Source: Kiritimatiellia bacterium (GTDB lineage Bacteria > Verrucomicrobiota > Kiritimatiellia > RFP12 > UBA1067). From it: a stretch of DNA of 39,117 nt. Both the position numbers and the translations under genes were made by a program. The notes below the pieces were generated by a model. The model did not search any database, was not told where the DNA came from, and saw nothing but the letters and a program-made list of their open reading frames with translations. Where the stretch lies: contig JAGYOL010000007.1 in assembly GCA_018399555.1 (NCBI GenBank), positions 1-39,117 on the forward strand. The letters are read 5' to 3'. This document shows, one piece after another, positions 4,546-31,429 of this stretch. Every line of letters starts with the position of its first letter. Positions within the stretch are counted from its first letter, which is position 1.

Positions 4546-4546
4546 T

Positions 4547-4566
4547 GATACGGGATACGGGATCGG
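4547..4566. repeat. Short tandem repeat in intergenic spacer
   Basis: GATACGG occurs twice back to back (4547-4553, 4554-4560), followed by the partial unit GATCGG. It sits directly after the solute-binding protein stop codon. Probably a small slippage duplication. Confidence 0.5.
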
Positions 4567-4619
4567 TTTAATAATTTGTCTGCTGTATAGCGGCAAATAT
4601 GCTGCGAAAAGGATTAATA

Positions 4620-11925: not shown

Positions 11926-12018
11926 TCCCAACCTCCCGGCTTTGTGACAAGCCGTACCTGTTGTAACACTATCCTCAACAATTGCAGCAACCGCAACTGT
12001 CTGCGATGCTGTCCAGAC

Positions 12019-12024
12019 ATTTTC
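12019..12024 (-). promoter_or_regulatory. Candidate -10 element for the 1396-residue repeat protein
   Basis: On the minus strand the sequence reads TGCGAAAAT, the same extended -10 as in the promoters at 2804 and 29329. It would give a leader of about 87 bases before the ATG at 11925. No good -35 is found 16-18 bases upstream, so this call is weak. Confidence 0.25.
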
Positions 12025-12062
12025 GCAAAGGTTCAAATCACAGCGGTCATATCAAACCTTCC

Positions 12063-14905: not shown

Positions 14906-15138
14906 AACTTCTCCTGTCTTTTGTTATCTAAAATTTATAGAATCATTAACTCCCAAAGTAGCACATAACCAAACTGATTAACCAGCAAAATTTCATAAAA
15001 TCGGCTGTAGTTTATTCTGCGCTTTCACCGTGTATCGATTCGCAGTTGTAAATCTTGAAATCAATCTTGTGTTTGCCCTAAAAAAGTGGCATCATGCAAG
15101 TACGATTATGTTATACGTATAGAAAAAGGAGGTTGGTC

Positions 15139-17631
15139 ATGCAGGAGTTACAAAGGGTGATATGGGAAACAGCTTGTGTGTGCGGGCTGATAATCTGTTG
15201 CGCATCCGGTGCGGCGGCGGTGGAGATAATCAACTCCGGATTTGAAGCGCCTGATGCTCAGTCGAATAGTTGGATAAAAATTTCAGAGTTGGAGGATAAT
15301 ACAGATGGAGTTGGCGGCTGGACCTTCAGCGGTGTAAACTGCGGTGTGGCCTACAATAATTCCACCTGGTGCATGACTGCACCTGAGGGTGTGCAGGTTG
15401 CCTACCTGAAATATGAAAACACGATTTCAACCACATTTGCAACCACTCGTCTTGGTACCTACAAACTGACCTTTATGGCGGCTGATCGTCAGGCTAAATG
15501 GCCGGCGGGTCATCTGGGCGTTCTGATTGACGGCGTGCAGGTTGCCTACTGGACATCTGCGGAGATCACCAACGACGATCAGTTCCGGCTTTACACAGTT
15601 GACCTCGGCATATTGTCGATTGACACCCACACACTAACGTTTCAAGGCTGGAGTCCGGGCGAGGATTCAGCAACATTGATCGATGATGTCGCGATTACAC
15701 TCGAAAATCCGTTCAATTTCTGGAGTCCCGATCCGCTTTCAAGTAACTGGAATGATACGGTTTGGGCCACTGTTTCCGGAGGTACTCCTGATCAGAGTTG
15801 GAGTGCCGGTGATCTCGCGGTTTTTGATCAGCCGCAGAGCTACACTGTGACCGTGGATACGGCAGTGAGCGCGGGAATTGTATATGTTGATGCGGGTGAT
15901 GTAACCTTTGTGGGAACTGGCGGAGTAGGTACGGATGAGCTGCGCGTCGCCGCGGGTGCGACACTCAGTGGTGAGGGCGAATGCTATCTGAAAAGCGGCG
16001 TGACTCCGTTGATACTGAACGGGACGCTTGATCTGACAGCTCTGAGTGACAGTACGCGCACTGTGGATCTGATTGCAGGTTCAGGCGAGCTGATACTGTC
16101 AACCAATCTGAGTGTCAACGGAACCGCTACATTTAGCGGGGCGGTCAGCGGTGGCGGGAATCTGACAAAAATCGGAGAGGGTAAATTGCAGATCGACAAC
16201 TCACTCACAGGTGATATTGCAGTTAACTCGGGTTATCTCACGTTGCAGAACACAGCCTCCGGTACTATATCGGTTGCATCTGATGCAGGTTTGTCTTTTA
16301 CAGAGCTTTCCGATCTGCTGGGTGAGCTAGCTGACTCAGATAACGATTTTACCGGTAATGCAATGATCGGGTTACACAATGCCGACGCACTCACCGATCC
16401 CGCCCTCGCCGGTGTTGATTATGGCACTCTGCGCTTTCTGAAAACAGGTGCCGGAGTTTTGAAAATTGCATCATCCTCAGTTCTTTCGGGTATCACCGGC
16501 GGGGTGGTGGTGGCTGAAGGTGAACTGGAGTACGGCTGCACGGATGCGGTAGCACCCGATGTGCCGATCGAAGTCAAGCCGGATGCCCGGCTCTATATGA
16601 ACAATAGTGTTGAAGTTTTTGATGTTTCGCATCCTCTGATTCTCGCGGGCAACATTGATTATACCGGCACCGGAGACGGTTCTATGAAGGTGAGAATTGT
16701 TACACGCACTGCCAATTTCAATGCACCCGTCACAGTGGCCGGCGACACTAAGATCAAGATTTATTCATCAAGTTCAACTGTTAATTTCAACGCGCCGTTC
16801 AATGGAGCTGGCGATCTGGTTATATCGAGTGGCGGAGCCGGTGAGCTGCATGCGCATCAGATGACCTTCAACGCATCATCCACCTTCGAGGGGAATGTCA
16901 CGCTGATGAATGATCTTGGTGCCAGCAGTTATTTCTACTGGGGGGTTGATGATGCGTTGCCGGCAGGTGCTGTCCTGCATGTAGGAAGCACGCAATGGAA
17001 TTCATTCACATATACAACCGAGATCGATCTGAAGGGGTATAATCAGACAATTGCCGGTCTGGCTGACGGAGTTACGATCCACAACGACACTGTGCGTGTG
17101 TTTACCAACAGTATGGCCAATGGCTCAACCCTGACAATGGAAGTCGCCGCCGAAGATCAGCCAGCCTATACCGGTGTCATGGGCGGCGGGATAGAGCTTG
17201 TCAAAAGCGGTGACGGCACACAGATGCTCACGGGCGACGGCAGTGCCCGCAGCGGACGGATTGCGGTGCAGGCCGGCAGTATGCTGCTCGACGAAAGCTA
17301 CCTGCTTCAGGCTGAGACCGTTGAGGTGCTGCATGGGGCGACTCTGCGGGTGGAGGATGCCGGGAGTGTCGAGCCGCTTGATTCGGTCACGATTCTTTAT
17401 GCGGGTCTGAACAAATCGACGCAGGGTGAAACAGCTGTACTCGATATTCCCGTCGGTGTGAATGTGACGGTGCGTCAGTTTGCTGTTGACGGCGTGTTCA
17501 AACACGCCGGTACCTGGGGAGCTTCCGGTAGTGGTGCCGATTATATCAACGATGATCTCTTCAGTGGCAGCGGTACGCTCACAGTGCTCGAAACCGGACC
17601 GCTCGATGGCACACGTATTCTGATCAAGTAG
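15139..17631 (+). CDS. Secreted beta-strand-repeat protein with N-terminal jellyroll (830 aa)
   Basis: The ATG at 15139 is preferred: AAGGAGG (15126-15132) lies 6 bases upstream and a signal peptide follows (residues 1-27, ending ASGAAA). The in-frame ATG at 15094 has no such site. Residues 28-190 form the same jellyroll-type domain as in the 1396-residue protein (INSGFEAP, GGWTFSG, APEGVQVAYL, LIDDVAI), and the SSNWN segment falls at the same residue number (about 201) in both. Repeats such as LTKIGEGKLQIDNSLTG follow, then a single copy of the module that is tripled in the paralogue. The C-terminus (STQGE, DGVFKHAGTWGASGSGAD, FSGSGTLTVLETGP) matches the paralogue closely and ends in DGTRILIK. 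The gene diverges from the 907-residue gene across 233 bases. Confidence 0.87.
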   Translation: MQELQRVIWETACVCGLIICCASGAAAVEIINSGFEAPDAQSNSWIKISELEDNTDGVGGWTFSGVNCGVAYNNSTWCMTAPEGVQVAYLKYENTISTTFATTRLGTYKLTFMAADRQAKWPAGHLGVLIDGVQVAYWTSAEITNDDQFRLYTVDLGILSIDTHTLTFQGWSPGEDSATLIDDVAITLENPFNFWSPDPLSSNWNDTVWATVSGGTPDQSWSAGDLAVFDQPQSYTVTVDTAVSAGIVYVDAGDVTFVGTGGVGTDELRVAAGATLSGEGECYLKSGVTPLILNGTLDLTALSDSTRTVDLIAGSGELILSTNLSVNGTATFSGAVSGGGNLTKIGEGKLQIDNSLTGDIAVNSGYLTLQNTASGTISVASDAGLSFTELSDLLGELADSDNDFTGNAMIGLHNADALTDPALAGVDYGTLRFLKTGAGVLKIASSSVLSGITGGVVVAEGELEYGCTDAVAPDVPIEVKPDARLYMNNSVEVFDVSHPLILAGNIDYTGTGDGSMKVRIVTRTANFNAPVTVAGDTKIKIYSSSSTVNFNAPFNGAGDLVISSGGAGELHAHQMTFNASSTFEGNVTLMNDLGASSYFYWGVDDALPAGAVLHVGSTQWNSFTYTTEIDLKGYNQTIAGLADGVTIHNDTVRVFTNSMANGSTLTMEVAAEDQPAYTGVMGGGIELVKSGDGTQMLTGDGSARSGRIAVQAGSMLLDESYLLQAETVEVLHGATLRVEDAGSVEPLDSVTILYAGLNKSTQGETAVLDIPVGVNVTVRQFAVDGVFKHAGTWGASGSGADYINDDLFSGSGTLTVLETGPLDGTRILIK

Positions 17632-17692: not shown

Positions 17693-19390
17693 TCAATCCG
17701 ATCTCTGAGACGGGAAGACTGTTTCGAGTTGGTGCTGGCAGCGCAGGAATGTTGCTACCACCAGCGGATCGAACTGTGTTCCACTGCAACGCTCAATCTC
17801 AGCCCGCGCCTCTTCATAGCTGCGAGGGGACGAATAGAGTCTGCCCACACGGATGGCATCGTAGCTGTCGGCAATCGCGTTGATGCGTGCTCCGAGGCAT
17901 ATCTGTTCGCCTGGCAGCTTGCGCGGATAGCCTGTGCCGTCGAATCGTTCCTGGTGCGAGAGCACGATTTCCGCAATCTCCCGAAATTCAGGATTTGATT
18001 TCAGGATGTCATATCCGGTTTGCGGGTGTTTTTTGACAATCTCCCACTCTTCAGCGCTCAGCTCTCCCGGTTTGAGCAGAATGGAGTCGGGTATTATGAT
18101 TTTACCGATGTCATGCAGCAGCGCACCTTGTTCACACATTTCGATCTGAGCGTCGGAAAGAGCCATCGTGCGTGCCAGAATGCCGACCATTTTAGATACC
18201 CGTCTGCTGTGTTCGCCGGTCGCTTTTTCGCGGGCGTCAAGCATCTCCACCAGGGTGTTGAAAACATAGTTGAATTTCTGAGTTTGCCGGTTTAAAGCCG
18301 ATGGATGGATTTCGCCGTCTTCCGAATCAAGGCTGTCGTCCTTGTGCCAGAGCGTTATGGTGTTGCGTCCATTGCGCTTTGATTGATACAGCGCGCGGTC
18401 GGCTTTTTTAATCAGATTGTGCAGAGGTCTGGTGCGGATCGGCTTTTCACAGGCTGCGCCGATCGAAAGTGTGACCGGCATACGCGTTTGTCCCGTCGAG
18501 AAATTAGTGTTGCGGATATCAATTAATATCCTGTCGGCGGTTTTGGCAACCGCGTCGCAGTCGTTGACCGGCATAGCAATCACAACCTCGTCGCCACCAT
18601 ATCTGCAGATCAGATCAGAGACGCGCAGCATCGATTTGAGAATGGCTGCAAATTTGCGCAGCACGTAATCGCCGACGGCGTGTCCATAGTTGTCGTTGAT
18701 GATTTTGAAATGATCTATATCGATGATAATTATGCCGATCGACTTATCTTCACGCTCTGCCACCGCTTTAAGCTTACGCAGCTCACGCTGAAAGCCGCGT
18801 CGGTTGAGCAGTCCGGTGAGTGAATCCTCCTGTGACAGATACTGCAGTTTTGCTTTGCTTTTTTCCAGTTCGCAGGTGGTCTGCTTGAGTTTGTTGCAGG
18901 TTTCCAGCAGATTCTGCTCTTTTTCCTTGAGAATCGCAATCGCCGCACATAATTCACGTTCGAGTTTTTTACGGTGGCTTATATCATAAGATATCTTGAG
19001 GTAGTGGCTGATTTCACCTTTTTCGTTGAGGATGGGCGTTACAGAGGTCTGCTCCCAGAAACGTCCGCCATCTTTCCGGCATCCTTCGCTTTCGCCGCTC
19101 CAGCTTTCACCGAGCAGGATATCCTGCCAGACAGAGACAATTGTGTTGTGACAGCACTCAGCGCACGTCAGCACGGAGACATCTTTTCCTTTCAACTCTG
19201 CCATTTCATAGCCGGTCAGATCGGTGAACTTCCGGTTGACATATTCGATCCGCCCGTCGGCGTTCAGCAGCATGACCGGCATGGGGCCGTCGATTATCGC
19301 ACTGACGATAAAGCCTGCCGAGGCCGCATCCATTTTCAAAAACCCCGGTATTTTATCTTTTAAACCTGAAATGGTTTTATTTTGTTTCAT
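17693..19390 (-). CDS. PAS-GGDEF-HD-GYP cyclic-di-GMP turnover protein
   Basis: 565 residues without signal peptide or membrane span, so cytoplasmic. A PAS domain (about 28-140) carries an odd Cys cluster, TCAECC (75-80), plus C104; a coiled coil links it to a GGDEF domain (186-348) and an HD-GYP phosphodiesterase domain (about 370-560). The signature is RYGGDEVVIAM, so GGDEV replaces GGDEF. An inhibitory RxxD site (RVSD, 256-259) lies exactly five residues upstream, as in product-inhibited diguanylate cyclases. The HD-GYP part has HDIGK (426-430) and HQERFDGTGYP (479-489), as in active enzymes. It may therefore make and degrade c-di-GMP, with PAS deciding the balance. It starts 51 bases after the deacetylase and is most likely the last gene of the polysaccharide operon, whose synthase carries a PilZ c-di-GMP receptor. 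Confidence 0.92.
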   Translation of the reverse strand: MKQNKTISGLKDKIPGFLKMDAASAGFIVSAIIDGPMPVMLLNADGRIEYVNRKFTDLTGYEMAELKGKDVSVLTCAECCHNTIVSVWQDILLGESWSGESEGCRKDGGRFWEQTSVTPILNEKGEISHYLKISYDISHRKKLERELCAAIAILKEKEQNLLETCNKLKQTTCELEKSKAKLQYLSQEDSLTGLLNRRGFQRELRKLKAVAEREDKSIGIIIIDIDHFKIINDNYGHAVGDYVLRKFAAILKSMLRVSDLICRYGGDEVVIAMPVNDCDAVAKTADRILIDIRNTNFSTGQTRMPVTLSIGAACEKPIRTRPLHNLIKKADRALYQSKRNGRNTITLWHKDDSLDSEDGEIHPSALNRQTQKFNYVFNTLVEMLDAREKATGEHSRRVSKMVGILARTMALSDAQIEMCEQGALLHDIGKIIIPDSILLKPGELSAEEWEIVKKHPQTGYDILKSNPEFREIAEIVLSHQERFDGTGYPRKLPGEQICLGARINAIADSYDAIRVGRLYSSPRSYEEARAEIERCSGTQFDPLVVATFLRCQHQLETVFPSQRSD

Positions 19391-19441
19391 TTCAACCTTT
19401 TTTTTAAACTATCCGATCACTTTCGTCCGTTACGGCGAAAC

Positions 19442-21130
19442 CTAATCCTGATCGAGATACAACTCACCTTTGACACGATAAAAACGGGGGGTATCAGTAT
19501 TATTAAGCGGCAGAGTCACTGCGGGATATATCAGGTTGTCGGACACAACCTGCCAGCCGGTTGCGTCATTCAGATTGGTCGAAGTTTCAATACTGTAAGC
19601 ATAAGCGTTATCATCCCAGCTTAAATGCAGCAGTTCTGAATTCATGTCCGATTTTATTACTACCTTGATATGTTGCGGACCGACGCCTAGCAGTTTCAGT
19701 GAAACATCGTTGAATGAAACGGTTCCCCCTGTTCTGCTGATGCGGAAATCAATTTCATGCCAACCTCCGGTTGGTATTGTCCGGTTGTAATGACGGGCAG
19801 CCGCCGAAAGATGGTTATCGGTTTGTGACCAGGTGGCATCATACAAGCTCAGCAGGTTTCCGCCTGCAATGGTGAAATCAACAGTCCAGTCAGAAACCTG
19901 GTGCGGGGTGTTGTTGGAAACCGTCATCCGACACCAGGCAAACTCGGTGTTTTGTGAAACAACGTTTGCCGTGATTGCTTCACCGGGCAGCCAAGCTGAT
20001 CCGAGATATGCGGTTTGATAATCAGGTGCAAAAGGCGTGTCAACACCGCAGGTATAAAAAACGTGTTTGCCCGGAAAGTAACATTCTACGATTTCATTCT
20101 CGGGGAATGGTGTGCGCACCGGGGTTTTGAATGACTGATGTGAAGCAGCTTCTGCCGCCTCTGCCGGATTGAGCATATAATCCACCAGATCATTACAGGT
20201 GATAAACCAGGTGTCGGGATGTTGCAGTGCCCAGGTAATGAATTCGTTGAGTGCACCGATACGCCAAGCTTTGTGCTGCGGATTTGAAAGCCATTGAGTA
20301 TCCCAGACCGCATGAAGAAAAATGCCGTAGGGGGAGCGGTTTCCGTTATAACGGCTCAGAAAATTTTCTTTCCAAAGGGAAACTACCTGGTTTGAGTTCA
20401 ACGATGAAGGCGGATCGGTCAATGCCAGCGCGACAGAATTGGTGAACTGCACCCAGACCGGTATTTCAAACAGTCCGGGATAGTTTGTGAGCGGTACGTT
20501 TGGCGGAGCGGCAATCTGCTGCAGTCCGTTATCGAGCGTGTAGGGCCAGATAAGATTATCCGGTGCCGTGCTGTACATTCCGAGAGCTTCACGCATCGAG
20601 GCGTCATAGCGAAAACCTCTTTCGTGCAGCACGCGGAATGTATTGTCGTTCGGATCGACACGCGGTGCCCGGAACCCGTTGATATCTTCGGCGGGTATAC
20701 CGCTAAGATTGACCAGTATTCTTTTTTCACCCGCGATCTCCTGTCGCCAACGCTCGATTGAACAGGTATGATCGGTGCTGTGCGAGATTGTGTGCAGTGC
20801 TATTTCATGGCCCGCGTCATACAGTCGGCGGATAGAGTAATAATCGTAGCCGGCATTGAGTGCGACAAAAAAAGTGGCTTTGATCGTGTCGCCGTTCGGA
20901 TTGCAGTGATTGGTGAGCACCTGCTGTACCAGATCGTAGGAGTTCAATGTAACAGCATCGTCAAAGGTCAGCAACACAATCTGCGGTGTGTTACTTGGGG
21001 CCAGACCGCCGGGTGGAGCGGTGGAAACCGGAACGCTGGATGCCCAAAGCACAGTTTCGGCGCAGCAGACTGCGGCCAAAACTGCCAGCCGCAAACAGAT
21101 AGTTTGAGCAGCTCTGTTTAATTTTAACAT
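19442..21130 (-). CDS. Secreted chitin-deacetylase-like NodB protein with CBM2-like domain
   Basis: The ATG ending at 21130 has GGAGAAG about 6 bases upstream and is preferred over a TTG at 21151; 562 residues with an N-terminal signal peptide. The NodB (CE4) domain spans about 48-320 and has intact key residues: TFDDA (D57, D58), the metal-binding HTISH (H113, H117), FRAPR (R154) and FLHAVW (H273). The details resemble arthropod chitin deacetylases more than bacterial PgaB: NPNGDTIKATFFV, LYDAGHEIALHTISH, NGFRAP, WPYTLD, FEIPVW and NFLSRYNGNRSPYG all have counterparts there. A CBM2-like segment follows (about 370-465: SDWTVDFTIAGGN, DATWS, IPTGGWHEIDF), then a module ending FYRVK (about 488-554). 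It probably removes acetyl groups from GlcNAc polymers outside the inner membrane. Fourth gene of the operon. Confidence 0.85.
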   Translation of the reverse strand: MLKLNRAAQTICLRLAVLAAVCCAETVLWASSVPVSTAPPGGLAPSNTPQIVLLTFDDAVTLNSYDLVQQVLTNHCNPNGDTIKATFFVALNAGYDYYSIRRLYDAGHEIALHTISHSTDHTCSIERWRQEIAGEKRILVNLSGIPAEDINGFRAPRVDPNDNTFRVLHERGFRYDASMREALGMYSTAPDNLIWPYTLDNGLQQIAAPPNVPLTNYPGLFEIPVWVQFTNSVALALTDPPSSLNSNQVVSLWKENFLSRYNGNRSPYGIFLHAVWDTQWLSNPQHKAWRIGALNEFITWALQHPDTWFITCNDLVDYMLNPAEAAEAASHQSFKTPVRTPFPENEIVECYFPGKHVFYTCGVDTPFAPDYQTAYLGSAWLPGEAITANVVSQNTEFAWCRMTVSNNTPHQVSDWTVDFTIAGGNLLSLYDATWSQTDNHLSAAARHYNRTIPTGGWHEIDFRISRTGGTVSFNDVSLKLLGVGPQHIKVVIKSDMNSELLHLSWDDNAYAYSIETSTNLNDATGWQVVSDNLIYPAVTLPLNNTDTPRFYRVKGELYLDQD

Positions 21131-21184
21131 CGCTTCTTCTCCGATATTCAATTTCTTGTTTTCACTTTCTGCCTCAACCTCGGT

Positions 21185-24100
21185 TTAAAACCTGCCGGTC
21201 ACGCCGATCATACCCTGCAGCCGTTCATAACTGGGACTTTGAGCCCAGCGGAGTTCACCGAGCAGCTCGAAATTACGGGTTAAAGTCAATGTTCCGCGTC
21301 CGCGTGCGCTCCACACGAAATCCCAGCTGGTATCACGCTCCTTTGCATAACCGGCTTCGGCACTTACAAAACCTCTGAGACGCTGCCATTCGCCGCGCAG
21401 GGTTGCATGTAGCATGTGCTGCTGCAACTCTTCGGGGGCCCAGTATTCCGGAGGATCGCGATCGCTGTCGGCCACGCGGAAACGCCAGCCTACGCCGAGA
21501 TAGGGCCATTCATTCACACGATACAGCAGACGTCCATCCAGCAGGGTTGTATCGTTGTCGTCGTTGCGTACAATCTGCATCATGTCGGCGTACAGATCGA
21601 AAATGTCGATCAGACGCGAGTATGTTGAAAGGCGATAGGTATCCGCATGGATATCACGCCGCAGTGCTTCGACGGTTTCGATTTCATCGCGTGCGAAAGA
21701 GGGTATGATGTAGCCGCTGAGCAGTGGATTCGGCAGGCGCAGCGCAGCGGAACCTCCGATCAAATCATCGACATCATCCATATCCAGCAGCCACAACGAT
21801 CCTGTGAACCAGGTCTGAGGCGCCAGATAAGCCAGAGTGCGCAATCCATAGCGGGTGCCGTATTCACTGCCGATATCATCGGTGCTCCAGCGGTTGCGAT
21901 CCGCCAGCATTCCGAGACGGATACGTTCGTTGACAAACATGTCGGCGTTACCACCATATTTGAAGTAATCACGATCTTCATTATCCTGCCATCCTGTGAG
22001 ATAAAGGGTGATCTGTGATCGGCGTTGCTCACGTACCCGTTCTAATGCAGCGGGAATCATAGTGTTTTCCGGGTCCAGTTGCTGTGCGGTCAGCAGTTTT
22101 GCCCGTGCGGTTGGCAGGTCGCCCTGCATATAGGCATTCATGCCCCAGTTGAAGTTGACCTCAGCCGGATCAGCGCCATGTTTTTCAGCTTGTTGGAAAG
22201 CGGCATGGGCATCCTCGTGCTGTCCGTTCCAATAAAGCACCCGTGCACGCTCCATCCAGTTAAGAGCCAGGGGATTATGGTTTGTCAGATACTCGGCAAG
22301 CTGATCCGTGCTCCACTGCGGCGGCACGCTACGGGCCGGTATACGCAGAGGATCGTAGTGCTCTGATTTGATCAGAAAACCGCAACTGTCAAAATACACT
22401 GCATGTGTAAAACTATGTGCGACACTGCCGTGCAGCAGGTCGAAGCTGTTCGTGTTCATATCAAGTGAAAGCTGACCGTAATCGCCACCGGGGTAAATCA
22501 GCACACGTTCGTCCCGGTTCTGCAGCATTTTGGATGCGCGTTTTAACTCTGCATCAATCCGGTTGCGGTACTCACTCTCTGTTTCGCTGCTCATCCCGGT
22601 ATGCAAAGGATGGGTCAGGGCGTTGCCCAGGATCGACTCTTTATAGTCCACCCGCTGACGTCGGTTGCCGGGTATGCCGCCGCAGGCTGGTTGCCAGCGT
22701 TTGCTTGAAAGGATAGCACGGGCGTCGGCACTCAGCGGTCTGCCTTCGAGTGTCAGATCAGGTATGGCTGTATTGCCGGCATACAGCACAGCGGCGTGGT
22801 GCTCGCGCAAAACGGGGTCGATGGCTTCTATCACACGGGTAGAGGGATCGATCAGAACCATCATTACACGCAGTTCATCCCCTCCGGATGCGTCATTCTG
22901 AGTGAAGCGGTTGACAAAGGTGTAACCTTGTCCGGCGAGGTGCTGTATGTGCTGAGTGATCTGTTTCACGGAGTTACGTCCGGCATACGGTGTTCCATCA
23001 GGTGAGTTATAAACCAGGATCGGCATGACACCCTGCTTCAGAGTATCATTTTCTTTACGCAGAATTTTGAGAGCCTGGCGGTATTTTTGTTGCTCGGCCA
23101 GCGAGTTGGCGTAGTGGCGCCATACTTCGGCGTTATGCGGTTGAATCAATGTTCTGCGGTACGCGAGTTCAACAGCCTGCTCGACAGCCGCTGATTGTGT
23201 GACCGCGATGCGCAGTGCCTTCAAGGATGGAACGAAGTATGGATTACGCGCGAGCAGCTCGCTGTGGAACTGAACGACCTCATTGGTGGCAGCCATGTTC
23301 TCCAGCATCCGTCCGGCCAGCAGAGTCATCGGGACATGTCCCGGATCCTGAATCAGAAACTTACGAGCTGCAGCGAGAGTTGATTGAGCGTCACAGCCCA
23401 TTCGTTCCCGGCTTTCGGCAAACACTCTGAGCAGGCTTTGCGATTCTTTCAGCTTGAGACCCTGATCGGCCCATTCGGCAGCCCGGCGATACTCTCCGCA
23501 AGCTGAGGATGTTTCAGCAAGTGCTTCAAACAGCCGGTAATCCTGGATGATTTCAGTTGCTTCCCGCAGAACGTCAATCGCCTGGTCGGGTCTGTCAAGT
23601 TTAACCAGAGTGCTTGCGGTACTGATGGCATAATAGGCCGATTCGGGATTTTCGCGTTGCAGTACTCTCCACTCTTTCAGTGCCAGGCGGTGATCACCCT
23701 GGGCGGTCAAAAGTTCAGCTAGGTAGGAGCGCAGAGTGGTTTCACCCGCCGCGACACGCTCGGCGAACCACTGTGTCTGCAGCTGTGCATCAGCGACTCT
23801 GTTTTGATTCAGGAGCGATATGAAGAGAACCTTGCGCAGGGCAGGTTGATCAGGATTGAGATCAATGCTCTCCTGCATCAGATCAGCGGCTACGGCGTTA
23901 TCACCGTTCCGGTCGGCGCGGATGCCCTGGATGCCCTTGATGACCGATGGATCGGAGGCGCGTTTTTCATTGCAGTCCATCCATTTCAGCGGACTTTTTT
24001 CTTCAACCTTCTCGGCCAGCAGCACCGCCCATATCCAGCAACTGCGGTCGGGGTCGCGTTCGAGCAGTTCACGATAGATGCGCAATGCCTGGGTATGATT

Positions 24101-25477
24101 TTCGTCGAGACGCAGTTTCGTTGCTGCGACCTCCATGATCTCAGCGATATGTCGGGTGTAGGGCTCAACGGAATCCAGTTTCGCTTCAAGCTGCCCCACC
24201 AGTTCCGGAGTATCCGTTTCGCTGGCATTCAGCCGGAGTGTTTTCAATGCCAGCTCGGCATTTTCAGTCGAGCATTTACCCGGCGCAGAGAGCAGCGGTG
24301 AGAGATATCTGCGCAGTTCACCGAATTTTCCGTTTCGAGCGCGGACGTATGCCAGGTTTACGCCGACAGGCGGTGTCCGGTTGCCGTTTTGCCAGATGTA
24401 ATCAAGTATAGGCAGAGCAGCTTTGACCCTTTTGTTGCGAACCAGCTCGATCGCCAGTTCGGCCGGGGAGTTCTGCGAATCAACTTTACGCATGAATGTC
24501 ACAGCTTGTTCACCTTGATTCTCTTCTCCTAGTCGTGCGACAACCTGAAAGATCACCTTTTCGCGTTCATCCACGCCGTCGTGTACGGCCTGCTCCAAGT
24601 GTTTCACGGCCGCTGTATGCTGCGAATCCTCCCACAGCAGCCAGCCCAGATCGCGTCGTACGGCGTGTTCATCCGGATGCTGCTTCAAAACCTTGCGGTA
24701 GGCCGCCATTGCTTGTGCACCGTTACCGCCTTTCTGATAGAGCAGGCCCAGAGCACGCCAGGACGCGGCATCCGCCGGCTGGTCCGCCACGATTCGACGC
24801 AGTGCTTCAATGGCATCTTTTTCCCGGCCCAGCCGCGTCAATGCGTCAGCTAATCCGCGCCACGAGGCTGTATCGGAGGCATCAATTGCGACTGCGCGTC
24901 GCAAAGAGACGACCGCGCTGTCAAAATTTCGCATTGATGATTGCAGTGCTCCGAGCTCGCGCCAGCCTGTGCGGTTTTCCGGTTCCAGCTGCACAATTTT
25001 CCTGTAGGCCTCTTCCGCCTCGACATACTTTTGTTCCTCCACCAGCCAGGTGGCCAGATCGCGCCAAGCCGAAGTTGCTTCCGGTTTGAGGTTGAGATAG
25101 CTCCGCAGTGCATCAACTGCCTGTTCGTGTTGGCCGCAGTGCCGGAGAGCAAGGGCAAGCCCACGCCAGGCGGTCTCATCCTTCGCGTTCATTTCGATCG
25201 TCCGTCTGAAGGCTTTGGCCGACTCCTCCGCTTTGCCGCCGCGGTAGAGGGTTACGCCCAGCTGACGCCAGGCGGGGGGATGCGCCGGATCCAGTTCAAC
25301 CGCTTTTTCAGCGTGCTGCAGGGCCTGTCCGATTTTGTCGTCGGCCAGCGCGCTCTGTGAATCTCTGAGCAGCTGAGCCACGCTGACCGCCTCCTGGCCG
25401 TTCGCAATCCCGGTGAACGATCCGATTGTGAACTTCAGCAGCAGCAGAGTGCATATTACCGTTTTATATATTTTCAT
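21185..25477 (-). CDS. TPR / PgaB-like / TPR / outer-membrane barrel fusion, putative polysaccharide exporter
   Basis: The ATG ending at 25477 is chosen: AAAGGAG lies 7 bases upstream, it falls 13 bases after the previous stop, and a signal peptide follows (residues 1-27). A longer frame to 25639 would overlap the upstream gene and lacks support. Of 1430 residues, 45-300 are regular 34-residue TPRs with a recurring WRxL, and further helical repeats run to about 810. Residues 815-1065 resemble the PgaB deacetylase fold (VMPILVYNS at the start, YRNRIDAELKRASKML, IYPGGDYGQ), but the catalytic TFDDG is replaced by VLIDPS. Further TPRs lie at 1070-1145, and 1150-1430 is beta-rich with a C-terminal Phe, as in outer-membrane barrels. 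TPR plus barrel is the plan of PgaA, the PNAG exporter. Likely the scaffold and outer-membrane exit of the polysaccharide. Confidence 0.8.
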   Translation of the reverse strand: MKIYKTVICTLLLLKFTIGSFTGIANGQEAVSVAQLLRDSQSALADDKIGQALQHAEKAVELDPAHPPAWRQLGVTLYRGGKAEESAKAFRRTIEMNAKDETAWRGLALALRHCGQHEQAVDALRSYLNLKPEATSAWRDLATWLVEEQKYVEAEEAYRKIVQLEPENRTGWRELGALQSSMRNFDSAVVSLRRAVAIDASDTASWRGLADALTRLGREKDAIEALRRIVADQPADAASWRALGLLYQKGGNGAQAMAAYRKVLKQHPDEHAVRRDLGWLLWEDSQHTAAVKHLEQAVHDGVDEREKVIFQVVARLGEENQGEQAVTFMRKVDSQNSPAELAIELVRNKRVKAALPILDYIWQNGNRTPPVGVNLAYVRARNGKFGELRRYLSPLLSAPGKCSTENAELALKTLRLNASETDTPELVGQLEAKLDSVEPYTRHIAEIMEVAATKLRLDENHTQALRIYRELLERDPDRSCWIWAVLLAEKVEEKSPLKWMDCNEKRASDPSVIKGIQGIRADRNGDNAVAADLMQESIDLNPDQPALRKVLFISLLNQNRVADAQLQTQWFAERVAAGETTLRSYLAELLTAQGDHRLALKEWRVLQRENPESAYYAISTASTLVKLDRPDQAIDVLREATEIIQDYRLFEALAETSSACGEYRRAAEWADQGLKLKESQSLLRVFAESRERMGCDAQSTLAAARKFLIQDPGHVPMTLLAGRMLENMAATNEVVQFHSELLARNPYFVPSLKALRIAVTQSAAVEQAVELAYRRTLIQPHNAEVWRHYANSLAEQQKYRQALKILRKENDTLKQGVMPILVYNSPDGTPYAGRNSVKQITQHIQHLAGQGYTFVNRFTQNDASGGDELRVMMVLIDPSTRVIEAIDPVLREHHAAVLYAGNTAIPDLTLEGRPLSADARAILSSKRWQPACGGIPGNRRQRVDYKESILGNALTHPLHTGMSSETESEYRNRIDAELKRASKMLQNRDERVLIYPGGDYGQLSLDMNTNSFDLLHGSVAHSFTHAVYFDSCGFLIKSEHYDPLRIPARSVPPQWSTDQLAEYLTNHNPLALNWMERARVLYWNGQHEDAHAAFQQAEKHGADPAEVNFNWGMNAYMQGDLPTARAKLLTAQQLDPENTMIPAALERVREQRRSQITLYLTGWQDNEDRDYFKYGGNADMFVNERIRLGMLADRNRWSTDDIGSEYGTRYGLRTLAYLAPQTWFTGSLWLLDMDDVDDLIGGSAALRLPNPLLSGYIIPSFARDEIETVEALRRDIHADTYRLSTYSRLIDIFDLYADMMQIVRNDDNDTTLLDGRLLYRVNEWPYLGVGWRFRVADSDRDPPEYWAPEELQQHMLHATLRGEWQRLRGFVSAEAGYAKERDTSWDFVWSARGRGTLTLTRNFELLGELRWAQSPSYERLQGMIGVTGRF

Positions 25478-25490
25478 TGTGTGACTCCTT

Positions 25491-27452
25491 TCATTTAGAC
25501 GAAAACGAATCAATCCGTTGGATAGACCTCGGAGCTGATGAGCCTGAAATTCCGACAGTTTCAATCTGAGCCAGCCGGTAGGCGGGCACCGTGCGCAGCA
25601 GAGTGTCGAGCACAAATTCCGTTTCCTTGGCGTCACCATTGATAATAATCACTTCATCACGATATTGATTAGCGGTCAAAGCACCCCACTCTATTGCCTG
25701 GGCAGGATTCAGCAGGTGAAAAACACGGTAGCCGCGGGTGCGTAGCTCATCTGCGATTTCCGGTAATGCTCCTTCGAGCAAGACAGCAGGAAGCAGCATT
25801 TTCAGATCGCGTTGACGGAGCATCTCATCAATTTCGGCAATCCACTGCACTCCATCCTGGCTGCTTACATCGCTTCCGCCGCTTAGCAGCGGATAGGTAT
25901 GTATGCCTCTGACCGAGGCGTACAGCAGGGCTTGTTCATCGGCTCTGGAGAGTTCCGGTTTTTCGGCGGCTTTGAACCACTCCGGCACTATCGCCTGCAA
26001 CTCCTCCGGCCCGGCGGCTTTGATCTGATCCTGATTATCGGTAATCAACCAGCGTTCTGTCAGGGGACGGGCACTGAAATCACCCGCTTCCGCCACGCCT
26101 TGCTGAGCACCGATGCCTACTCGACCGCGCTGTGTGGCGGAAGAAAGCGGCAGGTTCGCAGCTATCTGATTTCCGTCCAGCCACAGCCAGGCACGGTTGT
26201 TACGTATGCGCAAACGCAGTTGATACCCGCCGGATTGTTGATCTGTTGGTGCGGCACGCTCACGAAAGAGGGTGATCACACGATTGTCTGAGCACTCCTG
26301 TACAGCTACTTCGCCATCCCTCAGAGTTACACGCAGCCAGGAGCGCGGCGACGAGGCGCGTGCGTAGAGTGATGCAATACTTTTTTCAGTGCCCTGCATG
26401 CTCGCGGTCACCTCGCAGTCGCGCCAGTTTTCAGTGCCTCGCAACCAGGCGGACGCATCGCTGTTGAGATGCAACTTGTTCCGGCGTATTTCGGCGTCGC
26501 CCTCAAATGCCCACTCCGTGACAGAGCCGATTGACTTCACGGCAGTAGTGCGTGGTCGGTTTGAGTTCAATTCCTTCAGCAGCCGTTCGGGAGTCCAGTT
26601 GCCGGGAACACGCAGTCTGGTTAGTGTCCAGGGGTCGCTGCCGGGACCGTTGAAAGCATTGGAACTTCCGATGAAAGCCAGATCAAAGTGACGTACTACG
26701 GCTTCACGATTTACCGCTTCGGCGAGTGCGTCCGCATGCGCACCCTGTCCCGCATCGGCAAATGGATAGAGATAGAGTGCAACCGGGGCGGCGGATGCCT
26801 CCCTGAGCAGGCGGGCTGAGCGTTCGTAGTCAAGCTCAATACGCTCGCGGAATGCCTGTGCGGTTTCAAGTTGTCCATCTGCGTTCAGTATCCGCCGTCG
26901 TGTCAGAAAACGCCGCTCCTCCTCCGGTGCAGTACCCTCCGTCGCAGTGACCGCCCGGTGTCCCATGCTTCCGACCCGCCACTGCGGCAGTTCGGTTATT
27001 CTGGCGATATCCTTTTTGCGCAGGTAAAAACTGCCCCACTTGCTCATTACATCGGTCGGTACTGTCAGAACAGCGGTGAACCCGGTACGCTGGAGAATCG
27101 GAGTCGCTCGGATGAAGGCCTCTTTGCGCCCTCCTTCAAATATAATCAGCAACGCCTTCTCCGGCAGAGGGGAACGTTCATCCAGACAGGCCCGCAGATC
27201 TTCCGGATACACCGTCCGGTAGCCGGCCTGGCGCAGTGCAGTCAACTGGACTTCGAGTTGTTTTGCAGAGGGATAGACAGCATTGCTCTTGCGTGTTATA
27301 CCGGGATAGGAGATCACAGTGATTCCATTCCAGTTGCGCCAGTCAGCTGGATTGTAAGCCGGCTGAGGTGTTGGCCGCAGAATAATAAACATTACAAATG
27401 CGGCTAGGGCTGCCACGATCAGCCATTGAAAAGCGATCAGTAATTTTCTCAT
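25491..27452 (-). CDS. Membrane-anchored PgaB-like pseudo-deacetylase with concanavalin-like domain
   Basis: 653 residues with one N-terminal membrane span (about 6-25), so probably anchored in the inner membrane facing the periplasm. Residues 43-300 follow the PgaB deacetylase domain: ITVISYPGI, LRQAGYRTVYPEDL, a long FLTRRRILNADG...FRERIELDYERSARLL section, and LYLYPFADAGQ in place of the YPYG loop. The metal-binding TFDDG has become IFEGG (104-108) and the HTxxxH motif is degenerate (MGHRAVTA), so catalysis is unlikely. Residues 312-465 look like a concanavalin-type jellyroll (WLRVTLRDGEVAV, LWLDGNQI, GRVGIGAQ), suggesting glycan binding. The last ~150 residues are unrecognised alpha/beta. 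AAGGAGG overlaps the stop of the synthase gene, so translation is probably coupled. A structural or polymer-guiding role is inferred. Confidence 0.75.
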   Translation of the reverse strand: MRKLLIAFQWLIVAALAAFVMFIILRPTPQPAYNPADWRNWNGITVISYPGITRKSNAVYPSAKQLEVQLTALRQAGYRTVYPEDLRACLDERSPLPEKALLIIFEGGRKEAFIRATPILQRTGFTAVLTVPTDVMSKWGSFYLRKKDIARITELPQWRVGSMGHRAVTATEGTAPEEERRFLTRRRILNADGQLETAQAFRERIELDYERSARLLREASAAPVALYLYPFADAGQGAHADALAEAVNREAVVRHFDLAFIGSSNAFNGPGSDPWTLTRLRVPGNWTPERLLKELNSNRPRTTAVKSIGSVTEWAFEGDAEIRRNKLHLNSDASAWLRGTENWRDCEVTASMQGTEKSIASLYARASSPRSWLRVTLRDGEVAVQECSDNRVITLFRERAAPTDQQSGGYQLRLRIRNNRAWLWLDGNQIAANLPLSSATQRGRVGIGAQQGVAEAGDFSARPLTERWLITDNQDQIKAAGPEELQAIVPEWFKAAEKPELSRADEQALLYASVRGIHTYPLLSGGSDVSSQDGVQWIAEIDEMLRQRDLKMLLPAVLLEGALPEIADELRTRGYRVFHLLNPAQAIEWGALTANQYRDEVIIINGDAKETEFVLDTLLRTVPAYRLAQIETVGISGSSAPRSIQRIDSFSSK

Positions 27453-27463
27453 ATCAGGCCTCC

Positions 27464-29101
27464 TTATTTACGGGTTACCCATGCATTACGCCAGCAGGTC
27501 AGAACAGCCCAGGGTGTCTGCCACACAAGTATGAACATGTAATAAAAGCAGAATACCGTTCCGTAAAACCAGAGCCGTGAGCGCCGGTAAAGCAGATAGG
27601 TGCTGCTCATCAGGGCGCTCATCAGGGTTATGCCGATGATATACATCAACGGAGAGGTGCGCTGCACCAGAGGTATGTATATCAGGGCGCGCACAACAAT
27701 AGCCGGTCCCATCAGCGGCAGAATGAATCCGAGATAGAAGGAGAGCGCCATCAGCGGCTCTTTGCGCCACATGAAGGTCGAGGCGATCAAACTTTCTCTG
27801 AACCATGAGCGCTTCCAGCGCATCTGTTGTTTGAGAAACTCGCCATGCTTTTCAGGCACCATGGTGGTGACGCGAGCTTTGGATTCATAAACCACCTTGT
27901 AGTTGCGCCGCAACAGACTGTTGGTCAGAGAGCGGTCATCACCGAAGGTGGCTGCCGCACCCAGAAATCTCTGATTCAGCCACTCCGGCAATATTGTCTG
28001 CAGCACCTCAGCGCGGTAGGCCGAGATCGGCCCGGAGAGACAGGTTACACTATTGAAAACACTCTCAGCGGCTTTCATTACCCGGAAGGCGATGAAATAG
28101 CGAACCGCCTGCATGCGGGTCAGTCTGTTCGACCAGATGTTTTCAACATCACAGTGCCCGGTCACAGCCGCCACCGCCTGATCAGAGAATCGGTTCACCA
28201 GATTGCGCAACGCCGAAGGCTCCACAAAACTGTCAGAATCAATAAAAACAACGATCTCTCCGGTGGCCAGCGCGACACCGGTAGCCAGCGCATGACGCTT
28301 GCCTGCGTTTTTATCCAGCCCCAGAACCACAAGCTCAGGGTAGATCTTCTGTGCAGCCTTCATTTTCATCAGGGTGTCGTCGGTGCTACAGTCGTCAACG
28401 GCGATAACCTGCAGACGCTCACGCGGATAGTCCGACTCCATCAACTGGCGCAGTGTGCGTTCGATCTGTTCCTCTTCATTGCGCACCGGCACCACTACCG
28501 ATAGGGCTGGCAGTTCGGACAACGGTTTGGCGTCGCTGTAGAACGCCGCGAAAAGAAAGCGGCTGAGCAGATAACTGCCGACCAGCAGGCTGTAAAGAAA
28601 GACCGGCACATCAAACCAGAAATAGTAGTAGTTTTCATATTTGATCAACAGAACAGCACTTGCGCTGACTATCAGCATGACAGCCGCCAGACAGCGCAGA
28701 TAACTCCAGGAGCTCCTTTTGTAACGATCAGCCAGGTCCTGCTCAAACGCCAGCCCGATCAGCGGCGAATCATCATCACGATGACGTACCTGCGCATTGG
28801 TGGCGACAACCCCCTGGATGAATTCCTCAGGCATTGCACCCTCAGGTATGCGGAACTTCATCTTCAGGCGCTTTTCATCCGGTGGCACATCCGGTGCCTC
28901 GATCAGCAGTCCGCCACTGGAAATGTCGTGCACTGTGGCACTGTACTCACGTGCGTTTTTGCCTTCGCCGACAAATATGCGGATTGGAAAATCGGCCAGA
29001 AAACGCTGCGATCTGCGGCGGTCAGAGTAGTTTTCACGCGACCTCGAACGCAACCTTCTTTCGGGTACCGGTTCAGGGTATTTCTGAGTCTCTCTTTTCA
29101 T
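27464..29101 (-). CDS. PilZ-domain family 2 glycosyltransferase, hyaluronan synthase/NodC type
   Basis: The ATG ending at 29101 is chosen: AAAGGA lies 9 bases upstream, while the earlier ATG ending at 29110 touches that site; 545 residues. The N-terminal PilZ domain (about 25-125) has the c-di-GMP motif: RRSQR (RxxxR) and DISSGG (DxSxxG). Two membrane spans follow (about 135-155, 165-188), then a GT2 domain with VPVRNEEEQI, VDDCSTDDT (D236, D237), DSDS (288-291), FGDDRSLTN (386-394) and QQMRWKRSWFRES (425-437), three more C-terminal spans, and a WVTRK ending. GDDRxLTN and RWxxSxFRE are typical of class I hyaluronan synthases and NodC rather than cellulose synthase or PgaC. It likely makes and extrudes a beta-linked, GlcNAc-containing polymer when c-di-GMP is bound. 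First gene of the operon. Confidence 0.88.
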   Translation of the reverse strand: MKRETQKYPEPVPERRLRSRSRENYSDRRRSQRFLADFPIRIFVGEGKNAREYSATVHDISSGGLLIEAPDVPPDEKRLKMKFRIPEGAMPEEFIQGVVATNAQVRHRDDDSPLIGLAFEQDLADRYKRSSWSYLRCLAAVMLIVSASAVLLIKYENYYYFWFDVPVFLYSLLVGSYLLSRFLFAAFYSDAKPLSELPALSVVVPVRNEEEQIERTLRQLMESDYPRERLQVIAVDDCSTDDTLMKMKAAQKIYPELVVLGLDKNAGKRHALATGVALATGEIVVFIDSDSFVEPSALRNLVNRFSDQAVAAVTGHCDVENIWSNRLTRMQAVRYFIAFRVMKAAESVFNSVTCLSGPISAYRAEVLQTILPEWLNQRFLGAAATFGDDRSLTNSLLRRNYKVVYESKARVTTMVPEKHGEFLKQQMRWKRSWFRESLIASTFMWRKEPLMALSFYLGFILPLMGPAIVVRALIYIPLVQRTSPLMYIIGITLMSALMSSTYLLYRRSRLWFYGTVFCFYYMFILVWQTPWAVLTCWRNAWVTRK

Positions 29102-29167
29102 GTTTGTCATTCCTTTCAGAAAAACCGCGTTGCTTAATCTAATTACATTGTTTTCTCTTTTGCGCTC

Positions 29168-29196
29168 ATTTTCTCTAAAAGATAGGACGTTGTCAA
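29168..29196 (-). promoter_or_regulatory. Sigma70-like promoter of the polysaccharide operon
   Basis: Read on the minus strand: a consensus TTGACA (29196-29191), a 17-base spacer, then GAAAAT (29173-29168). Transcription would begin near 29160 and give a leader of about 60 bases before the ATG at 29101. The GAAAAT -10 box is shared with the promoters at 2804 and 29329. Confidence 0.55.
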
Positions 29197-29374: not shown

Positions 29375-31414
29375 ATGATAAAACTTGGATATGTGGCAGC
29401 GGGTTTGCTGATTTTATGTGGCAGCAGCGCAGGAGTTTTTGCGGATGATCGTCCCAACATTCTTTTTGTTTTCACTGATGATCAGCGCTACGACGCGATG
29501 TCGGTTGTTCAGCGTGAACAAGGCGAGAGGGCGCGTTTCCCCTGGCTTGAAACATCAAATATGGACAAACTGGCCGCTGAAGGTGTACGTTTCCGAAACG
29601 CCTTTGTAGTCAATTCTCTCTGTTCGCCGAGTCGGGCGGTCAATCTGACCGGCCGTTACAATCATCTGAATGGCATCGCGTCCAACTTCCGTGACTTCCC
29701 GGTTGACAATGTGACTTACGCCACGCTGTTACGCGATGCCGGTTACGCCACGGCCTACATCGGCAAGTGGCATATGGGCAGCCAGAAGGAGCGTCCCGGT
29801 TTTGATTATGCCGCTTCATTCATCGGACATTCACGATATTTCAATCCTGAGTTTATTGTCCAGGGCAAAAAGGTGCCTCATACCGGGTGGATCGATGATA
29901 TCACCACCGATTATGCGATTGACTATCTCAAAAGCCGCAAAGGATCAGAACAGCCTTGGCTGATGACCGTCGGTTTCAAAACGCCGCATGGTCCTTTTGA
30001 GCCGCCGCCGCGTACGCAGCAGCTTTATGAAAATGAGCTGGCCAGAGTGGTGCCCAATTTCAACGCTCCCGCACCCTACGCCAACGAGAAATTCAAGCAG
30101 AATATCGCCGGGCGTGAGTTGGAGGAAACAATCAGGACCAACCTGGGCTACTTCCGCTGTCTGACGGCGGCTGATCAATGTTTGGGGCGTCTGCTGGATG
30201 CTGTTGATCAGAACGGGTTCCGTGACAACACGGTTGTGATCTACACCAGCGATAACGGTTTTTATCTGGGTGAACACGGATTGGGCGACAAGCGCAGCGA
30301 TTATGAAGAGAGTCTGCGTGTACCCTTCATAGTACGCTACCCTCCCCTGGGCGACGCGGCCAGTGGCCGCATCTGTGACCGTATGGTACTCAATCTCGAT
30401 CTACTCCGGTCACTGCTTGATTTCGCCGGGGTTGAACCGCCCGGTCAGATTCAGGGTCGCAGCTGGAAGCCGTTGCTTGCCGGTGATGTTGAGGATTTCC
30501 GCAAGTCCTGGTTTTTCGAATATTTCGCCGAGGCGCAGCGTGGTTCACGGATACCGGATATCTATGGAGTGCGCACGGAAAATTCCAAATTGGTTGTCTA
30601 TCCCGGTCATCCAGAGTGGACGGAGATGTTCGATCTGGCGAAGGACCCTTATGAAATCAATAATCTCTATAACAATGCTGAACACGCCGCAATGCGTTCC
30701 GGTCTGGAAAAGGAGCTGGAGCGGTTGCTCAAGGAGGTCGAATATGTGGTGCCGGAATACACGGACCGCCCCTATTGGTGGGATCTGCCCGGCGGAGCGG
30801 ATTGGAAGCCGGATGCCGCACCGCATCTCAAACTCGCGATTTCGCCAGCGGGAGTCGACGGTAGGATGGTGGTCAGTTCAGTTAATAAAAACGAACGTGC
30901 CGAAGTGAAGAATGCGGTCAAGGTGGTTGATACCGGAGATGGTTTCCACGCCTTTGATTTCAGCGGCGGCGGCTTTATCGAGGTCGGCAAACCAGCTTCC
31001 GTTGACCCATCGATGAAGGCTTTTACACTCGAGGTTGCGGCGAATATCGACGGTTCAGGCAATGGTGTGCTGGTTGGCAGCGGCGGAGCTTCACTCGGTT
31101 ACTGCCTGGCGGTCAGGCAGGGGCGCGTGCTTTTTGCTGTCAATGCAGGCAACAGACCGGTCGTTCTTAAAACCGCGAAACCTCTGAATGGTTGGATCAA
31201 TATTAGTGCCATTCTATGTGCCGACAGGTCGGTTGAACTGCTCGTAAACGGCATGCGGGTTCAACGCAAACACATAGCCGCCTTTATCACAAAGGTGCCG
31301 AATGACACCATGCAGATCGGAGCGGACAAGGGCAGCCCTGTGCTGGCAGAACCGCTCGGTCAATTCAAGGGTCTGATCAGAAGCGTCAAATTTTACAGTG
31401 GTGAGAAACGCTGA
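29375..31414 (+). CDS. Secreted sulfatase with C-terminal LamG domain
   Basis: 679 residues with a signal peptide (1-23, ending GVFA). Type I (alkaline-phosphatase fold) sulfatase: RPNILFVFTDDQR provides the metal-binding aspartates (35-36), the formylglycine motif is CSPSR (C83-R87) followed by AVNLTGRY, IGKWHMG comes later, and YTSDNGFYLGEHG supplies the second metal site. Cys at the first motif position means activation by a formylglycine-generating enzyme or anaerobic sulfatase-maturating enzyme; neither gene is in the window. KRSDYEESLRVPFIVRYP is typical of sulfatases acting on sulfated carbohydrates. Residues about 520-675 form a LamG/concanavalin-like domain (FDFSGGGFIEVG, LNGWINISAI, ELLVNGMRV), not usual in this family and probably substrate-targeting. 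AGAGG lies upstream of the ATG. The oxidoreductase gene follows within 15 bases, so both are likely cotranscribed. Confidence 0.92.
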   Translation: MIKLGYVAAGLLILCGSSAGVFADDRPNILFVFTDDQRYDAMSVVQREQGERARFPWLETSNMDKLAAEGVRFRNAFVVNSLCSPSRAVNLTGRYNHLNGIASNFRDFPVDNVTYATLLRDAGYATAYIGKWHMGSQKERPGFDYAASFIGHSRYFNPEFIVQGKKVPHTGWIDDITTDYAIDYLKSRKGSEQPWLMTVGFKTPHGPFEPPPRTQQLYENELARVVPNFNAPAPYANEKFKQNIAGRELEETIRTNLGYFRCLTAADQCLGRLLDAVDQNGFRDNTVVIYTSDNGFYLGEHGLGDKRSDYEESLRVPFIVRYPPLGDAASGRICDRMVLNLDLLRSLLDFAGVEPPGQIQGRSWKPLLAGDVEDFRKSWFFEYFAEAQRGSRIPDIYGVRTENSKLVVYPGHPEWTEMFDLAKDPYEINNLYNNAEHAAMRSGLEKELERLLKEVEYVVPEYTDRPYWWDLPGGADWKPDAAPHLKLAISPAGVDGRMVVSSVNKNERAEVKNAVKVVDTGDGFHAFDFSGGGFIEVGKPASVDPSMKAFTLEVAANIDGSGNGVLVGSGGASLGYCLAVRQGRVLFAVNAGNRPVVLKTAKPLNGWINISAILCADRSVELLVNGMRVQRKHIAAFITKVPNDTMQIGADKGSPVLAEPLGQFKGLIRSVKFYSGEKR

Positions 31415-31429
31415 GTGTTGGTGATAGAG

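Follow-up and report, generated by a model that had tools for sequence, protein, structure and literature searches.

Which polymer would be made by a gene cluster that joins a NodC/hyaluronan-synthase-type enzyme to PgaB-like proteins, an outer-membrane porin and a chitin-deacetylase-type modifier, and which of these genes belong together? The question is raised by five minus-strand genes in a stretch of 39,117 nucleotides from a Kiritimatiellia bacterium (assembly GCA_018399555.1, contig JAGYOL010000007.1); this whole stretch, here called the window, is one entire contig of a 2.86 Mb genome that is 82% complete. The preferred reading, held at a probability of roughly 0.55, is that the cluster encodes a Pga-like machine, gated by cyclic di-GMP (c-di-GMP), for a partly deacetylated polymer of N-acetylglucosamine (GlcNAc) that is probably beta-1,4-linked and chitin- or chitosan-like. 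A trans-envelope, synthase-dependent machine of the Pga-like type is highly probable; the most specific version, in which true chitin or chitosan is secreted through a Pga/Bcs-like complex under c-di-GMP control, with dead PgaB-like proteins as guides and an animal-type enzyme taking over deacetylation, is offered tentatively.

In the proposed scheme, binding of c-di-GMP to the N-terminal PilZ domain of the inner-membrane GT2 synthase (gene 1) would cause the enzyme to polymerise UDP-GlcNAc and extrude the chain. A pseudo-deacetylase anchored in the same membrane (gene 2), which retains its fold and a carbohydrate-binding-type domain, would bind the chain and pass it on to the TPR/PgaB-like/16-strand porin (gene 3), which would carry it across the periplasm and outer membrane. 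A secreted CE4-CBM2 enzyme (gene 4) would then strip acetyl groups, leaving a partly cationic chitin/chitosan-like polymer, probably beta-1,4-linked, and a PAS-GGDEF-HD-GYP protein (gene 5) would adjust local c-di-GMP. We infer the GlcNAc monomer, the beta-1,4 linkage and secretion of the product.

Components of the predicted machine

A check of the open reading frames of the window confirmed five tandem frames and their strands (Table 1). With ATG starts at 29101, 27452, 25477, 21130 and 19390 for genes 1 to 5, the intergenic gaps are 11, 13, 54 and 51 bases, exactly those given in the first-pass annotation; other possible starts are an ATG at 29110 for gene 1 and a TTG at 21151 for gene 4. 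Its domain assignments were likewise recovered with Pfam and NCBIfam (PilZ and GT2, PgaB-like, TPRs, CE4 and CBM2, PAS-GGDEF-HD-GYP), and the PgaB-like part and barrel that it had placed in gene 3, which gave no notable family match, were clear in the predicted structure.

Gene 1 matched the Pfam families PilZ (2.1e-10), Glyco_tranf_2_3 (1.9e-31) and Chitin_synth_2 (1.6e-20). The NodC model TIGR04242 scored 180.4 bits (cut-off 550) and the PgaC_IcaA model 132.6 bits (cut-off 422.3), which places the protein outside both families. Hyaluronan synthases (HAS) are its nearest solved structures; it is 34.6% identical to HAS from a Lactococcus plasmid and 31% identical to NodC. The catalytic motifs of the NodC/HAS group (DxD, GDDR, QxxRW) are present as DxD, GDDR and QQxRW; NodC of Rhizobium etli itself has GEDR at the position of GDDR. 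Gene 1 is thus predicted to be a synthase of the NodC/HAS kind, nearer to NodC/HAS than to PgaC, as had been proposed earlier from the same stretch. Both PilZ receptor motifs, RxxxR and (D/N)xSxxG, are intact and are kept in five other core orthologues, and the domain probably binds c-di-GMP. Control of poly-N-acetylglucosamine (PNAG) synthesis runs via PgaC-PgaD (PMC8461298), so a PilZ domain fused to the synthase represents wiring different from that of Pga. Gene 5 carries the active-site motifs of both of its domains (GGDEV with an RVSD inhibitory (RxxD) site; HDIGK and HQERFDGTGYP).

The gene 2 product scored 45.7 bits with the NCBIfam PgaB model TIGR03938, far under the cut-off of 321.9. 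In its AlphaFold model (mean predicted local distance difference test score 80.6), the PgaB N-terminal fold is followed by a CBM66-like jelly roll and then a C-terminal domain. All four of the PgaB residues D114, D115, H184 and H189 are replaced, which sets the protein apart from active PgaB. The motif FEG[GA]RK replaces FDDG in 6/6 gene 2 orthologues (FEGG in that of the window), and the conservation of this altered motif indicates that the catalytic loss is old. Because its hydrophobic N-terminal segment is followed by no recognised cleavage-type or lipoprotein signal, the protein is likely anchored in the inner membrane.

The structure prediction for gene 3 covered the last 619 residues and contained a PgaB-like domain, TPRs and a 16-strand barrel. 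The top matches of the barrel were BcsC (6tzk, Z 24.1), PgaA (4y25, Z 23.7) and PelB (9h80, Z 21.9), the next barrels reaching 16.6; in the model it groups with these exopolysaccharide export porins. By structure, gene 3 has the TPR plus 16-strand architecture of a PgaA-type porin, with PgaA tied with BcsC; by sequence, the NCBIfam PgaA model stayed under its cut-off. In some genomes with a related layout (G081 and G038), the CE4 domain fused to the porin retains FDD and both histidines, whereas the copy in gene 3 is degenerate, and the active deacetylase function thus seems to have left the porin and come to reside in a gene of its own. The first-pass annotation had called the PgaB-like parts non-catalytic, and the residues lost in gene 2 and in the gene 3 copy agree with this.

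Gene 4 would supply that separate function. Its nearest solved relatives are the Bombyx chitin deacetylases CDA1 (5zns, 1.9e-30) and CDA8 (5z34, 5e-29), the next being at 6e-8. The stretches LLTFDDAVT, ALHTISHST and GFRAPRVD provide CE4 motifs 1-3, with the catalytic base Asp and the Asp-His-His metal triad, and motifs 1, 2, 3 and 5 of BmCDA1, as described in PMC6463723, were all found. In 7/7 gene 4 homologues, neither the Asp pair nor either His has been lost. These data, which match the chitin-deacetylase-type modifier predicted earlier, suggest that gene 4 acts on a chitin-type substrate. Taken together, the porin and PgaB folds are present and the proteins lie outside the Pga and NodC families, in keeping with the idea of a Pga equivalent assembled differently.

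Table 1. Features of the cluster, with window coordinates and the evidence for each
Feature	Position	Strand	Evidence
Gene 1, PilZ-GT2 synthase, NodC/hyaluronan-synthase type	27464..29101	-	Pfam, NCBIfam, closest solved structures, motifs
PilZ domain of gene 1	28715..29023	-	RRSQR at residue 29, DISSGG at 59
Gene 2, membrane-anchored PgaB-like pseudo-deacetylase with CBM66-like jelly roll	25491..27452	-	NCBIfam, predicted structure, residue map
PgaB N-terminal (CE4) fold in gene 2, catalytic/metal residues gone	26553..27332	-	Structure Z 25.6 to 3vus_B; residue map
CBM66-like jelly roll in gene 2	26058..26540	-	Z 19.7 to 4azz_A, rmsd 2.5, 153 aligned
Gene 3, TPR superhelix/PgaB-like domain/outer-membrane barrel	21185..25477	-	Pfam, NCBIfam, predicted structure
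Second, degenerate PgaB-like domain, within gene 3	22274..23044	-	Z 16.2 to 3vus_A; catalytic residues lost
16-strand barrel of gene 3	21188..22015	-	16 strands in model; structure matches to export porins
Gene 4, secreted CE4 chitin-deacetylase-type enzyme with CBM2	19442..21130	-	Nearest solved structures; intact catalytic motifs
CBM2-like domain of gene 4	19715..19960	-	Pfam CBM_2 3.8e-11
Gene 5, PAS-GGDEF-HD-GYP c-di-GMP synthase/phosphodiesterase (predicted)	17693..19390	-	Pfam; motifs
Promoter-like site TTGACA-17-GAAAAT, upstream of gene 1	29168..29196	-	Consensus scan

The three-gene core and its partners

Genes 1-2-3 were found in the same order and on the same strand in six genomes from four families (the window, G014, G351, G363, G241 and G129). 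The core of G014, on record JAHFSX010000017.1 (Verrucomicrobia bacterium), is 80/54/52% identical to genes 1-2-3, and another genome (G006) holds a gene 3 fragment at a contig end (59%). No gene 2 match was obtained in the two same-genus genomes searched, so the core is patchily distributed. A contig scan with gene 2 alone gave no matches; with the gene 1 alignment it returned the G014 record and two distant GT2s, and nothing more. The five genes had been proposed as a single unit, to be checked by synteny in relatives. Conserved order was found for the core in the five other genomes and failed for genes 4 and 5: only genes 1-3 form a conserved unit or operon, with genes 4 and 5 as functional partners of variable linkage.

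In the window, a single transcript over the five genes is predicted. Shine-Dalgarno-like stretches are good ahead of genes 2 (AAGGAGG) and 3 (AAAGGAG) and weaker ahead of genes 1 (GAAAGGA) and 4 (GGAGAAG); the coupled ribosome binding sites once described for the whole cluster are thus a better description of genes 1-3 than of genes 4 and 5. The number of promoter and terminator sites in the region was about that expected from shuffled sequence, so the promoter-like site ahead of gene 1 is weak evidence.

GGDEF proteins of differing type lie near the core in 5/6 core genomes (the window, G014, G351, G129 and G363), and none was observed near the core in G241; the c-di-GMP enzyme linked to the core differs in type, orientation and distance between genomes. 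With the PilZ and gene 5 motifs, this supports the c-di-GMP wiring first suggested for the cluster. The gene 4 family occurs in 7/388 genomes of the phylum (E < 1e-140), and a gene 2 relative, present in 28 of these genomes, occurs in all seven (hypergeometric 5e-9). It is linked to a GT2 in two places only, the window and G278. The G278 locus (L089:6331-19270) encodes a synthase, two proteins without a Pfam match, the insect-type deacetylase and, adjoining that deacetylase, a divergent GH18 whose catalytic signature is intact; it also encodes a protein of 1676 residues that has TPRs and two CE4-like domains and weakly matches PgaA_barrel. Both G363 and G241 have a 53-56% gene 4 homologue on a separate contig, and G014 and G351 have a different CE4 gene near the core, with motifs that look intact and 52% identity to each other.

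Part of the core was also found on the Paenibacillus cellulositrophicus plasmid NZ_CP045296 (L109:7102-14732), where a PilZ-GT2 that is 42% identical to gene 1 over the full length is directly followed by a gene 2 homologue (5e-26, with FEDG replacing FDDG); the neighbourhood also holds another CE4 gene and one of the GH18 family that lacks the DxxDxDxE catalytic signature. By homology, the pair of synthase and pseudo-deacetylase spans phyla and is shared with single-membrane bacteria, and the pair would therefore either predate the lineage or have crossed phyla.

The polymer and competing readings

Three findings together favour beta-1,4-linked GlcNAc: gene 4 is of the chitin-deacetylase type, G278 has a GH18, and no GH18 match was obtained in the window's own genome (82% complete). 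The chitin- or chitosan-like product originally suggested for the cluster thus gains real support and remains unproven. The closest competitor, judged unlikely, is a divergent PNAG system in which the same machine makes, like Pga/Ica, partly deacetylated GlcNAc with beta-1,6 linkages. It would account for the PgaB fold in gene 2 and in the middle of gene 3, for a barrel as near to PgaA as to BcsC, and for the 133 bits of the PgaC model; however, the NodC score is higher (180 bits), GDDR is common to NodC/HAS, no PgaD was seen, PgaB catalysis is lost, the modifier is of the chitin-deacetylase type, and a GH18 adjoins the G278 locus.

Less probable again is that genes 1-3 alone constitute one system, with genes 4 and 5 as chance neighbours and the deacetylase serving the breakdown of foreign chitin. 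The gaps of 54 and 51 bases would fit such an arrangement. Against it stand the gene 2 relative present in every genome with the deacetylase, the second deacetylase-GT2 linkage in G278, and the different CE4 genes and GGDEF genes near cores elsewhere. Moreover, no GH18 was found in the window's genome although the search controls gave matches, which speaks against chitin breakdown as the role of gene 4; one GH20 was found there.

Several observations weigh against the preferred reading of a gated chitin/chitosan-like system. Some would suit chance neighbours: gene 5 has a poor ribosome site (AAAAGG), and among the six core genomes gene 4 is linked to the core in the window alone, the insect-type deacetylase being unlinked to it in the five other core loci. 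In G129, no deacetylase was observed near the core. No correction for shared ancestry enters the co-occurrence test, though the seven genomes span six families. In the GT2 tree, branches are long, NodC-like and HAS-like sequences are not separated and the PilZ group is weakly supported (39/0), and linkage and monomer cannot be deduced from sequence. UDP-glucose-dehydrogenase-type genes elsewhere in the genome mean that hyaluronan precursors may be available; even so, a hyaluronan-like or other alternating polymer, made by a HAS relative with the deacetylase acting on its GlcNAc or elsewhere, is improbable despite the HAS structures and the 34.6% identity being closest, since no sugar dehydrogenase lies in or adjoining the cluster or at any of the six core loci that were inspected, and two GT2 loci (G278 and Paenibacillus) have deacetylases and GH18-family genes instead.

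Known systems and genomic surroundings

The cluster shares with PgaABCD/HmsHFRS a GT2 synthase, a PgaB-fold periplasmic protein, a TPR plus 16-strand porin, deacetylation and c-di-GMP control. It differs in that its synthase is of the NodC/HAS type, carries a fused PilZ domain and comes without PgaD, in catalytically dead PgaB-like parts, of which one has become part of the porin, in the membrane anchor and CBM66-like domain added to gene 2, and in a separate chitin-deacetylase-type enzyme and its own GGDEF-HD-GYP enzyme. NodBC of rhizobia likewise pairs a NodC-type GT2 with GDDR and a NodB-fold deacetylase; however, identity is only 31%, Nod has no PilZ, porin, pseudo-deacetylase or CBM2, and its product is short oligomers modified intracellularly. 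Bcs cellulose secretion also has a PilZ-bearing synthase and a TPR/16-strand BcsC-type porin. PilZ is C-terminal in BcsA, whereas that of the cluster is N-terminal; the cluster also has no BcsB or BcsZ, and its GT2 is of another clade. Gene 4 has the CE4 motifs TFDD, HxxxH and RAP of the insect enzymes BmCDA1/BmCDA8, but is bacterial, with CBM2 replacing the insect chitin-binding and LDLa domains. The Paenibacillus cluster shares the PilZ-GT2 followed by a gene 2 homologue, with CE4 and GH18-family genes nearby, but belongs to a single-membrane host and has no TPR porin and no annotated GGDEF gene in the stretch.

No description of this gene set was found in the open-licence literature, consistent with the novelty claimed by the first-pass annotation. 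Such bacterial chitin synthases as have been reported are fungal-type genes, and their activity was untested in PMC5122149. There is little record of bacteria secreting long chains of chitin or chitosan; NodC yields short oligomers. If the preferred reading is true, the cluster would give biofilms a new matrix material, a chitosan-type polymer gated by c-di-GMP, and components of Pga, Bcs and Nod would have been recombined. The conserved pseudo-deacetylases offer a clean case whose role is testable, and the three-gene core and the cross-phylum pair supply profiles for finding further systems.

Many genomes of the order and class have a related layout, with a synthase without detected PilZ and a fused PgaB-like/TPR protein; in several the synthase N-terminus has a zinc-ribbon-like CPxC pair. 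A number of them encode an MBOAT O-acyltransferase, a DUF459/SGNH protein and a TPR/CE4-like/barrel porin (for example L045:3514-18161; also L044, L046, L048 and L052), which suggests an O-acylated sister polymer; in L045 these are followed by a response regulator, a KaiC-like ATPase and an AAA_22 ATPase. A GHL10-family hydrolase-like protein is divergent from the synthase in G363 (L080:5113-7191) and G241 (L081:4150-6192) and is possibly the polymer-cutting enzyme of these loci, both of which have a DEAD helicase after gene 3.

Within the window, four large autotransporter-like proteins with passenger-associated (PATR) repeats are encoded close around the cluster (210-2699, 7735-12036, 12182-14905 and 15094-17631). 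A sulfatase with an N-sulphoglucosamine-sulphohydrolase-type C-terminus and an FAD-dependent oxidoreductase (29375-34282) are divergent from gene 1 and share its upstream region, and a family 5 extracellular solute-binding protein adjoins a GH5 cellulase-family protein on the same strand (2818-6098).

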